Positions 22,231 to 25,302 of a DNA stretch of 64,000 nucleotides are shown here, in pieces. The position numbers and the translations under genes were made by a program. Source of the DNA: Caldicellulosiruptor obsidiansis OB47 (GTDB taxonomy: Bacteria; Bacillota; Thermoanaerobacteria; Caldicellulosiruptorales; Caldicellulosiruptoraceae); contig NC_014392.1 of assembly GCF_000145215.1 (NCBI RefSeq), positions 1,186,001 through 1,250,000 on the forward strand, written 5' to 3'. The notes below the pieces were generated by a model. It made no database searches. It saw only the letters and a list, made by a program, of their open reading frames with translations, and had not been told where the DNA came from. Each line of letters begins with the position of its first letter. Position 1 is the stretch's first letter.

Positions 22231-23293
22231 TCTTTTTGTTATTGCTAAGGCTCTTTTTGAAGAACTTGGATTTGAAGTGGTCATTCCTCCATATAACAAC
22301 AAAAGCGCTCTTGAAATTGGAAAGAGACTTTCGCCCGAATGTATTTGCCTGCCTTTTAAATTGAACATGGGGAATTTCATCCAAGCAATTGAAATGGGCG
22401 CAGACACCATTGTAATTTTTGGTGGCTGTGGACCATGTAGATTTGGATACTATGGTGCACTTGAAAAGGAGATTATCAAAGATTTGGGCTATGATGTGGA
22501 GATGATAGTCATTGAACCTCTTTTTTATGGTCTTAGGAATTTTTTGGAGCAGGTGAGTAAGATATTTGCAAGAAAAAATATAGCCAGTGTATTAAAGAGA
22601 GTGTATAGGTTAGCCAAAAAGGTAGATGGAATTGAGAAAAAAGTACATTTTTTAAGACCAAGGGAAATGGTTAAGGGAAGCGTAGATAAAATATATGAAA
22701 GGTTCAGAAAGGAAGCACTAAAAGTTTGCGGAATTGATCAAATGGAAAGATTGGTTGATACCACGAATGTTTTGCTTGACAACTTGTACATTGTAAATGA
22801 GAAGGTCAGAAAAATAGGAATTGTAGGAGAGATATACACCATTATTGATAGTTTTTCAAGCTTGAACATTGAAAAAATACTTGGTGATATGGGATGCGAG
22901 GTTGAACGAAATCTTTATATTTCCCAGTGGATTGATACACATCTAATATATCCAATATTTAAAAGAAAAGATCCAATTATTAAGAGATATTCTAAAGGTA
23001 TAATGCCAGCTTTAATTGGAGGCCACGCAAGAGAGACTATTTCTTATGCCAAATACTTTGCAGCCCAGAAATATGATGGAATATTGCATATTTTTCCTCT
23101 CACATGTATGCCAGAAATAATAGCAAAATCAGTATTAAATGGTATCAAAAATCAAATTAATATTCCTATCCTACACGTTGTAGTAGACGAGGTTGACAGT
23201 GACGTAGGTATCAAAACACGTTTAGAAGCTTTTTTAGACTTAATCGAAGCAAGGAGTGATAACGTTGAGCAAAGACTTCTTTCTTGGGATTGA
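22199..23293 (+). CDS. HgdB-like CoA-dehydratase-related protein (second subunit of activase cluster)
   Basis: 364-aa protein resembling the 2-hydroxyacyl-CoA dehydratase / double-cubane-cluster scaffold superfamily. It begins KKVAFPHMGNLFVIAKALFE. Four cysteines lie in two tight groups: LSPECICLP (Cys48, Cys50) and FGGCGPCRFGYYG (Cys77, Cys80). Another is in FPLTCMPEI. The C-terminal DEVDSDVGIKTRLEAFLD mirrors DEHCAGVGIQTRIEAYLD of the preceding gene, so the two subunits are probably distant paralogues. ATG 22199 follows TGGAGGAG. It overlaps both neighbours, implying stoichiometric co-translation. No CoA-transferase or dehydratase substrate genes are nearby, so a classical fermentation role is not supported. 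Confidence 0.75.
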   Translation: MKKVAFPHMGNLFVIAKALFEELGFEVVIPPYNNKSALEIGKRLSPECICLPFKLNMGNFIQAIEMGADTIVIFGGCGPCRFGYYGALEKEIIKDLGYDVEMIVIEPLFYGLRNFLEQVSKIFARKNIASVLKRVYRLAKKVDGIEKKVHFLRPREMVKGSVDKIYERFRKEALKVCGIDQMERLVDTTNVLLDNLYIVNEKVRKIGIVGEIYTIIDSFSSLNIEKILGDMGCEVERNLYISQWIDTHLIYPIFKRKDPIIKRYSKGIMPALIGGHARETISYAKYFAAQKYDGILHIFPLTCMPEIIAKSVLNGIKNQINIPILHVVVDEVDSDVGIKTRLEAFLDLIEARSDNVEQRLLSWD

Positions 23294-24257
23294 CATTGGT
23301 TCTGTTAGTACTAATGTAGTATTGCTTGACCAAAGTGACAGAATTATTGAAAGCATGTATCTCAGAACCCAAGGAAAGCCTATTGAAATTTTACAAAAGG
23401 CTCTTGGCGCATTGTACGAAAAGTATGGAGATAGCTTGAGGATAAAAGGAGTTGGAACTACAGGGTCAGGAAGGCATTTAGCATCGCTGGTGGTAGGAGC
23501 AGACATTGTAAAAAATGAGATAACTGCTCATGCAAAGGCTGCAATCTTTTTTGTACCTGATGTAAGAACTATAATTGAAATAGGTGGACAAGATTCGAAA
23601 ATAATCTTAATAAAAGATAGAATTGTTATTGATTTTGCTATGAATACAATCTGTGCTGCGGGAACAGGTTCTTTTTTGGATAGACAAGCAGAGAGACTTA
23701 ATATTCCGATTGAAAAGTTTGGTGAAATAGCAATAAAATCACAAAATCCTGTAAGAATAGCTGGCAGGTGTGCTGTGTTTGCTGAGTCAGACATGATTCA
23801 CAAACAGCAGCTTGGACATCCTTGTGAAGATATTCTTTTTGGGCTGTGTTTAGCTATGGCGAGAAACTATCTTGCCAATTTGGCGAAAGGGAAAAGCTTG
23901 GAAAGTCCAATACTGTTCCAGGGCGGTGTTGCGGCAAATATAGCAATGAAAAAGGCTTTTGAGCAACTTCTTGGAACACAAATTATAGTTCCAAAATACT
24001 ACAATGTTATGGGAGCAATAGGTATTGCCCTGCTGGCAAAGGAGAGGACAAAAGGTCTTATCACCAAATTCAGGGGTTTTGAAAGCATCAATGGTTGCAA
24101 GTTTGAGACAAAAGGATTTGAGTGTCGGGATTGTTCAAATTATTGCGAGGTTGTTGGTTTTTATAGTAATGGCAATTTAGTGGCAAGGTGGGGTGATAAA
24201 TGCCAAAAATACTCATCTAACAGGAATTATCATATTGAAAACTCTAAAAATCTGTGA
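23265..24257 (+). CDS. BadF/HgdC-type ATP-dependent activase (archerase)
   Basis: 330-aa ASKHA-fold ATPase that, in characterised homologues, is a homodimer with one bridging [4Fe-4S] cluster and fires low-potential electrons into a partner using ATP. Phosphate-1 is GIDIGSVSTNVVL, with GTTGSGR, IEIGGQDSK, then Cys130 (CAAGTGSFLDRQ) and Cys169 (GRCAVFAESDMIH), the two positions that hold the cluster. FQGGVAANIAMKKAF is adenosine-2. After about residue 285 there is an extra Cys-rich tail (ECRDCSNYCEVVG and a final Cys in GDKCQKY) not needed for an activase. TTG 23265 is favoured by AAGGAGTG eight bases upstream. It overlaps the previous gene by 29 bases. The ncRNA promoter lies in its 3' end. 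Confidence 0.85.
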   Translation: MSKDFFLGIDIGSVSTNVVLLDQSDRIIESMYLRTQGKPIEILQKALGALYEKYGDSLRIKGVGTTGSGRHLASLVVGADIVKNEITAHAKAAIFFVPDVRTIIEIGGQDSKIILIKDRIVIDFAMNTICAAGTGSFLDRQAERLNIPIEKFGEIAIKSQNPVRIAGRCAVFAESDMIHKQQLGHPCEDILFGLCLAMARNYLANLAKGKSLESPILFQGGVAANIAMKKAFEQLLGTQIIVPKYYNVMGAIGIALLAKERTKGLITKFRGFESINGCKFETKGFECRDCSNYCEVVGFYSNGNLVARWGDKCQKYSSNRNYHIENSKNL

Positions 24258-24263
24258 TATATT
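24235..24263 (+). promoter_or_regulatory. Promoter of the structured RNA gene
   Basis: TTGAAA (24235-24240), a 17-base spacer and TATATT (24258-24263). It lies across the activase stop codon and predicts a transcript starting near 24270. Near-consensus spacing and hexamers support independent transcription of the RNA. Confidence 0.65.
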
Positions 24264-24269
24264 TAAATT

Positions 24270-24553
24270 AGAAATAGCAAAACAAAGCTATGGCAGGAAC
24301 TCTGCCGTGTGCGTTACAAGATGGTGAAGTTCCAGGCCAACACCATCAAAAAAGGGAATCCGGAGTCCAATAGTGGCGCATAGGCTTCCCACCCAAGTAT
24401 ATCTTGGGTGACAAACAGGAAGTAATGCAAAGCTATTGGCAGGATACCCACCTGCTGAGGCAGGGTCTGGGAAACTCCCTGAGGACGGCATGGTGGAGTT
24501 CCTGACATGTAAAGAAGAAAGACCCAAAACCAAAAAGGGTCTTTATTTTTTTT
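24270..24553 (+). ncRNA. Highly structured non-coding RNA, class not recognised
   Basis: No plausible protein is encoded. Bases 24291-24510 are about 52% G+C (115 of 220 counted), against 11 of 50 just upstream. Helices found by eye: closing helix 24294-24302/24496-24504 (9 perfect pairs) continued by 24303-24307/24486-24490 with a 5-base bulge; 24310-24317/24422-24429 (8 pairs, one G-U); hairpin 24320-24326/24341-24347; hairpin 24354-24358/24386-24390; hairpin 24391-24397/24403-24409; hairpin 24451-24455/24460-24464. Loop bases 24367-24373 pair perfectly with 24433-24439, giving a pseudoknot. It has its own promoter and terminator. Hallmarks of RNase P, SRP RNA, tmRNA and 6S RNA are absent. 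A raiA-type or another Clostridia-specific class is possible but unproven. Confidence 0.8.
24518..24553 (+). terminator. Terminator of the structured RNA
   Basis: Perfect 8-bp stem AAAGACCC (24518-24525) / GGGTCTTT (24537-24544), an A-rich loop and a run of eight T residues (24546-24553). It lies 21 bases before the tcdA start. Confidence 0.88.
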
Positions 24554-24573: not shown

Positions 24574-25302
24574 TTGATAGGTCCAGAAGATATTTTCCAA
24601 AGAACTATGATGCTAATTGGAGAAGATAAGATTGAAAAACTGTCAAAGGCAAAAGTAGCAGTGTGTGGGCTTGGTGGAGTTGGAAGTTTTGCGTTTGAAG
24701 CTCTTGTTCGCTGTGGAGTAGGAAATTTTGTTATTGTTGACAAAGATAGAGTTGTTCCCTCTAATTTGAACCGCCAACTAATAGCAACTATGCCGAGTAT
24801 AGGAAGATATAAAGTGGAGATTGCACGTGAAAGGGCAGTTGAAATAAACCCTTTTGTGAAAATAGAAATAATACCTAAGAAAGTTACATCCGAGAATATT
24901 TATGAGATTTTTGAGAATGTGAATTTGGATTATATAGTAGATGCAATAGATGATATTGGGGCAAAGGTTGCACTTATCAAATTTTCTTCAAAAGAGAACA
25001 TAAAAATAATAAGTTGTATGGGTATGGGCAACAGGATAAATCCTTTGCTTGTAAAAGTTTCTGATATATATTCTACACGTTATTGTCCGCTTGCTAAAAA
25101 ACTTAGAAGTATTCTGAGAAAAGAAAATATTAAGAGTTTAAAGGTTGTATACTCTGAGGAAAAACCATCAAAACCCGATTATAGATATTTAAAAGAAAAG
25201 TCAGAAAAAAAGCATGTTCCAGCAAGTATTTCGTTTGTTCCACCTGTTGCAGGATTTATTATGGCTTATGAGGTGGTAAAGGACCTGGTTTTTGGTGATT
25301 AA
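24574..25302 (+). CDS. tcdA: tRNA threonylcarbamoyladenosine dehydratase (TcdA, ThiF/E1-like)
   Basis: 242-aa E1-like enzyme that in E. coli cyclises t6A37 of tRNAs to ct6A using ATP. N-terminal FQRTMMLIGEDKIEKL is the TcdA hallmark. Also seen are the Rossmann loop VCGLGGVGSFAFEAL, the E1 segment VDKDRVVPSNLNRQ, DAIDDIGAKVALI, and VSDIYSTRYCPLAKKLR. It lacks the C-terminal zinc cysteines of MoeB/ThiF, which supports TcdA. Start TTG 24574 follows GAAAGGGGAG; an in-frame TGA at 24568 excludes a longer form. Confidence 0.88.
   Translation: MIGPEDIFQRTMMLIGEDKIEKLSKAKVAVCGLGGVGSFAFEALVRCGVGNFVIVDKDRVVPSNLNRQLIATMPSIGRYKVEIARERAVEINPFVKIEIIPKKVTSENIYEIFENVNLDYIVDAIDDIGAKVALIKFSSKENIKIISCMGMGNRINPLLVKVSDIYSTRYCPLAKKLRSILRKENIKSLKVVYSEEKPSKPDYRYLKEKSEKKHVPASISFVPPVAGFIMAYEVVKDLVFGD

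Follow-up and report, generated by a model that had tools for sequence, protein, structure and literature searches.

A locus at positions 24270-24553 of the window, the 64,000-nucleotide stretch of Caldicellulosiruptor obsidiansis OB47 DNA analysed here, is this genome's gene for 6S RNA, an already known RNA that occurs widely in bacteria, has been studied in depth and holds RNA polymerase by mimicking an open promoter. The parts of the RNA gene described below, and the tcdA-like gene after it, lie on the plus strand unless otherwise stated. A cmscan search of 4227 Rfam families, among which we take the raiA, ROOL and HEARO models to be included, returned a match to RF00013 (6S / SsrS RNA) at 24296-24503 that, with 87.2 bits, clears the gathering score of 46.4 and so places the RNA in that family, and that covers the model completely (positions 1-187 of 187; E 2.2e-17 when a 2-kb stretch was searched and 7.1e-16 for the whole window). 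RF00013 is the sole Rfam family above its gathering score anywhere in the window, and in the 2-kb search the only further match at E<=1 was to DUF2693 RNA, at 19 bits against a cut-off of 81.3. The search had been proposed in the earlier note, which took the RNA for one of unrecognised class and named 6S RNA only to set it aside; in returning a known class it overturned that part of the note. The best explanation overall is that the genome has one 6S RNA gene and that this locus is it, with the 6S-1 (bsrA) type as the most likely one; its transcript, probably trimmed, would act as an open-promoter mimic that is released by pRNA synthesis. We regard the 6S identity as practically certain because of the full RF00013 match, the fold, the covariation, the gene neighbourhood and the conserved promoter and terminator. 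Our search of a literature collection that lacks most subscription journals, and that says nothing on what is in print overall, yielded no paper joining 6S RNA with Caldicellulosiruptor.

The gene lies in the gap noted previously, the length of which is confirmed as 316 bases, between an open reading frame that ends at 24257 and one that starts at 24574. The upstream gene (23256-24257) encodes an acyl-CoA dehydratase activase (TIGR00241 above cut-off), and the downstream gene (24574-25302) is tcdA-like, with a Pfam ThiF match above cut-off and a best NCBIfam match to TcdA whose 132.7 bits fall under the cut-off of 304. Two minus-strand open reading frames within the gap (24288-24533 and 24314-24508) gave nothing in Pfam at E<=0.001; we take them as chance and reject a protein-coding reading of the gap. 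The G+C-rich island described earlier is also real, since 24291-24510 has a G+C content of 52.3% compared with 34.5% for the window, a value attained by 0.0125% of the window's 220-base stretches, the richest of which begins at 24287.

The predicted minimum-energy fold of the RNA (-101.2 kcal/mol, z -6.2, with none of 200 shuffled sequences as good) bears out the claim of a structured RNA and has the 6S architecture of a closing stem, a large central bubble and an interrupted apical arm, forming a rod that is nested throughout. The long closing helix of the earlier note is present as 17 bp between 24294-24310 and 24488-24504, within a closing stem whose 5' strand (24294-24315) pairs with its 3' strand (24484-24504). 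A perfect pseudoknot of 7 bp had been proposed between CCAATAG (24367-24373) and CTATTGG (24433-24439). These arms are indeed perfectly complementary; however, they form part of a nested stem (24367-24374 with 24432-24439) of the apical arm (24354-24449), both in the minimum-energy fold and in the Rfam structure, and the pseudoknot is thereby ruled out. The RNA shares with RF00013 the whole model, including the closing stem, the central bubble, the apical arm and the conserved bases flanking the bubble, and differs from it in length, 208 bases here compared with 187 model positions. Most of this surplus is accounted for by a hairpin at the tip, a feature of the organism's own family (24390-24410, with 24390-24397 paired to 24403-24410), the columns of which are gapped in 23-24 of 28 aligned sequences; it is kept in the 12 rows of the genus and shortened in G012, the representative of a sister genus.

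Covariation in homologues, a check that the earlier note had also suggested, supports this structure. When the 13 sequences of the family (11 of them distinct) were aligned, 97.8% of cells were paired and six pairs showed double-sided changes, a number reached by none of 500 shuffles. The closing stem was paired in 94.9% of cells in the family and in 90.8% in a wider set of 28 of the 51 loci, from which eight of the 13 family loci, nine of the 30 other main loci (near-duplicates) and six second copies had been omitted, and in this wider set double-sided changes occurred at 10 of its 19 pairs. For the three shared helices of the apical arm the proportion of paired cells was 97.4, 96.8 and 82.4%, and the stem containing the two arms of the supposed pseudoknot (96.8%) showed double-sided changes at 8 of its 9 pairs. 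Over the whole structure 78.5% of cells were paired, and the covariation score was 0.328, compared with a shuffled mean of 0.172 and with 0.070-0.101 for slid structures, over which the tested structure, being the window's own fold, has an advantage. Double-sided changes were seen at 39 pairs compared with 33.7 in shuffles (39 being reached by 4 of 500), and the count of pair types in the 28 sequences did not exceed that of shuffles (112 of 500). The alignment was made by sequence (MAFFT), without fitting to structure, and three helices in the bubble were poorly paired in it, namely a 5'-bubble hairpin (44.0%), a 3'-bubble hairpin (47.1%) and the helix at 24466-24482 (40.0%).

As judged from sequence alone, the RNA has the signals of a free-standing gene. 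At 24235-24263, where a promoter had been proposed, there is a promoter-like site of the extended -10 type, made up of TTGAAA and TATATT at a spacing of 17, with a TG just ahead of the latter. The promoter scan is by itself not significant (two sites on both strands compared with 1.0 expected from shuffles), and it is conservation that upholds the proposal, as inspection of the alignment by eye showed TTGAAA and the stretch TGTGATATA to be identical in 13/13 family loci and the second hexamer to be kept in 12/13. Some 24 bases separate the promoter from the closing stem, and this presumed 5' leader (24270-24293), which varies in both length and sequence within the family, is probably trimmed off. 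At the other end, the earlier note's strong terminator is found at 24518-24553 as an 8-bp stem (24518-24525 with 24537-24544) enclosing a loop of 11 bases and followed by a T run. The standard terminator scan, which covers loops of 3-8 bases, found no terminators; a scan with loops up to 14, run without a shuffle control, found one at all 13 family loci, with stems of 6-11 pairs. The earlier interpretation stands in that the RNA is structured, comes from a free-standing gene that has a promoter and a terminator to itself, and probably acts in trans and not as a leader; it fails as regards the unrecognised class and the pseudoknot.

The gene neighbourhood was followed over about 1.2-1.5 kb on each side of each locus, with distances measured to the start of the match. 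At all 13 family loci a tcdA match lies 70-110 bases past the 6S match on the same strand, and a match within 103 bases is seen at 23 of the 30 more distant main loci (in two pieces in G036). The remaining seven main loci comprise one with a partial tcdA match 1.2 kb away and six with none, and no tcdA match was found near the other eight of the 51 loci, which are six second copies and two single copies of family f2. At one locus of genome G034 (L008, after position 1684) the bases directly past the 6S match look like the beginning of tcdA in its relatives; at the protein level no match to tcdA came up at this locus. The activase lies upstream at 12 of the 13 family loci, and none of the other 38 showed it.

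We take yrvM of Bacillus to be the orthologue of tcdA, and with that assumption the locus shares its downstream neighbour with Bacillus 6S-1 (bsrA); the 3'-bubble hairpin is shared as well. It differs in having the activase upstream, where Bacillus has aspS, and in that a 7-bp 5'-bubble hairpin is predicted and the one candidate collapse helix modelled is not. Because the upstream gene is the activase and not aspS, 'bsrA type' denotes a likeness of neighbourhood and no filed membership. In B. subtilis the 6S-1 gene is flanked by aspS and yrvM (PMC11077062), and bsrA of B. licheniformis is placed between the same two genes (PMC3871023).

A single copy of 6S RNA is found in the genome (2.53 Mb, one contig), with no second match up to E 10, a limit at which weak matches mean little because those obtained in control genomes include one in an archaeon. 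Among 14 well-known genomes used as controls, eight had a match at E<=10 (four above the cut-off), and five had one under the stricter filters (again four above the cut-off) that were applied in a search of 61 genomes, the source genome and 60 relatives. This search, the filters of which are able to lose weak copies, gave a 6S match at E<=0.001 in 59 of the 61, and 58 of these were above the cut-off. All 12 genomes of the genus have one copy each, as does the other genome of the family. Two genomes of family f4 (G021 and G031, 99 and 96% complete) gave no match in the 61-genome search, which would reflect either loss or a diverged copy that escapes the stricter filters. Two copies are present in 19 of the 20 genomes of family f3, and most of the main copies in f3 score above the 87.2 bits of the window's RNA, with a maximum of 119.6. 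The second copies are likewise members of RF00013 above cut-off; they differ from the gene described here in that a tcdA match is missing beside all six that were examined, five of them from f3 and one from G042.

Within the central bubble, a hairpin in the 3' strand (24451-24464, CCTGC/GCAGG) corresponds to one known from B. subtilis 6S-1 (PMC8876501). In an alignment-free scan 46 of the 51 loci showed a hairpin here with 5 pairs or more, 38 of them in the CCTG register, and the low pairing of this hairpin in the 28-sequence alignment is therefore in good part a matter of misalignment or of another register. Stems of 5 pairs in the 3'-bubble stretch are common among shuffles, and within the family the hairpin is no better than these (0.24-0.45); in many of the other loci it is better. 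The predicted pRNA template is placed at 24328-24341, within the bubble's 5' strand, by comparing the RNA without gaps with the pRNA published for B. subtilis (PMC12005410). The predicted pRNA is the 14-mer GUUGGCCUGGAACU, starting opposite C24341. At 8 of 15 identical positions the resemblance to B. subtilis is weak when taken alone, and three of the 13 family loci have an equally good second place; the GCCAAC core of the predicted template is common to many homologues. The putative pRNA has GG at positions 4 and 5 and an A beside the start site, as have other 6S RNAs, and lacks the AA at positions 9 and 10 that is typical in lactic acid bacteria (PMC8414754).

From what is known of the 6S family we infer how the RNA would be made and act. 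Transcription would run from about 24270 to about 24550, and the transcript would probably be trimmed to about 210 nt. The long rod into which it is predicted to fold, with a central bubble that would imitate an open promoter, may then bind and block the sigma-A RNA polymerase holoenzyme. With nucleotides plentiful, the polymerase would use the bubble's 5' strand as the template for a short pRNA, upon which the 6S RNA would refold and the polymerase be freed. For this last step we modelled a candidate collapse helix (24341-24346 with 24490-24495) after that of B. subtilis 6S-1 (PMC8876501). This was the one pairing tried; its six bases are complementary, but its probability was 0.00 in all 36 folds (four temperatures by nine lengths of blocked template), and we dropped it as support.

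Two other readings of the whole locus have to be weighed against that of a 6S RNA gene. That the RNA belongs to a new class of trans-acting structured RNAs with a pseudoknot, the view from which the analysis set out, is right in so far as the RNA is free-standing, has a genuine structure that folds better than chance and carries claimed arms that are perfectly complementary, but it scores highly across the whole of RF00013, and the arms both nest and covary as a nested stem; match and covariation rule a new class out, and we give it next to no credence. Alternatively, the RNA could be a cis-acting leader of tcdA, which lies close downstream at 13/13 family loci and at 23 of 30 others. Read-through occurs in B. 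subtilis, where RIP-seq of sigma-A also enriches parts of aspS and yrvM joined to 6S-1 (PMC11077062). However, a terminator separates the RNA from the gene at all 13 family loci, the architecture is that of a complete 6S RNA, and 6S copies exist with no tcdA match beside them (8 of the 51 loci, and six of the 30 other main loci, within the roughly 1.2 kb scanned). Terminator and copies without tcdA together rule out the leader as the main reading, and it seems to us highly improbable.

A third possibility keeps the 6S identity and adds to it a lineage-specific control, in which the 5'-bubble hairpin of 7 bp (24320-24347, formed by 24320-24326 with 24341-24347) hides or presents the predicted pRNA template that it surrounds and so tunes the release of polymerase. 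The hairpin is predicted in 12/12 genus loci, its loop taking in the greater part of the predicted template, and in the sister genus (G012) a different 7-bp helix takes its place. Yet the genus sequences are nearly identical here, so that the 12 hairpins amount to one observation rather than twelve and covariation gains no purchase on them, and three of the hairpin's outer pairs are broken in the sister genus. The shuffle values (0.018-0.066 per sequence), the pairing of 44.0% of cells in the 28 sequences and the loci outside the family, 36 of 38 of which have 6 pairs or fewer at this place and are mostly no better than shuffles, count against the idea as well; the last of these rules out a hairpin common to the whole class. 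In B. subtilis 6S-1 the counterpart is a weak predicted hairpin that probing did not confirm (PMC8876501). When the template stretch is held unpaired in the fold at 37 C, the modelled hairpin stays closed until 20 bases are blocked, which also counts against such a control. RNAfold gives the hairpin a probability of 0.98 at 37 C, which falls to 0.21 at 70 C, and it might on that ground serve as a temperature gate, with the template held in the loop, shut at low temperature and for the most part open at high temperature, that would govern pRNA synthesis and polymerase release. On these predictions any functional role for the hairpin is unlikely: we doubt that it provides a lineage-specific control, and doubt still more that it works as a temperature gate.

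We therefore return to a 6S RNA gene, most likely of the 6S-1 type. What sets this 6S RNA apart is, as far as can be predicted, confined to the longer apical stem and the 7-bp 5'-bubble hairpin, two small structural variants seen in this lineage. The main gain is one of annotation, in that the genome now has its 6S RNA assigned. The 6S-tcdA neighbourhood, described in Bacillus as bsrA-yrvM, is moreover kept at most of the main loci examined of the class and phylum.
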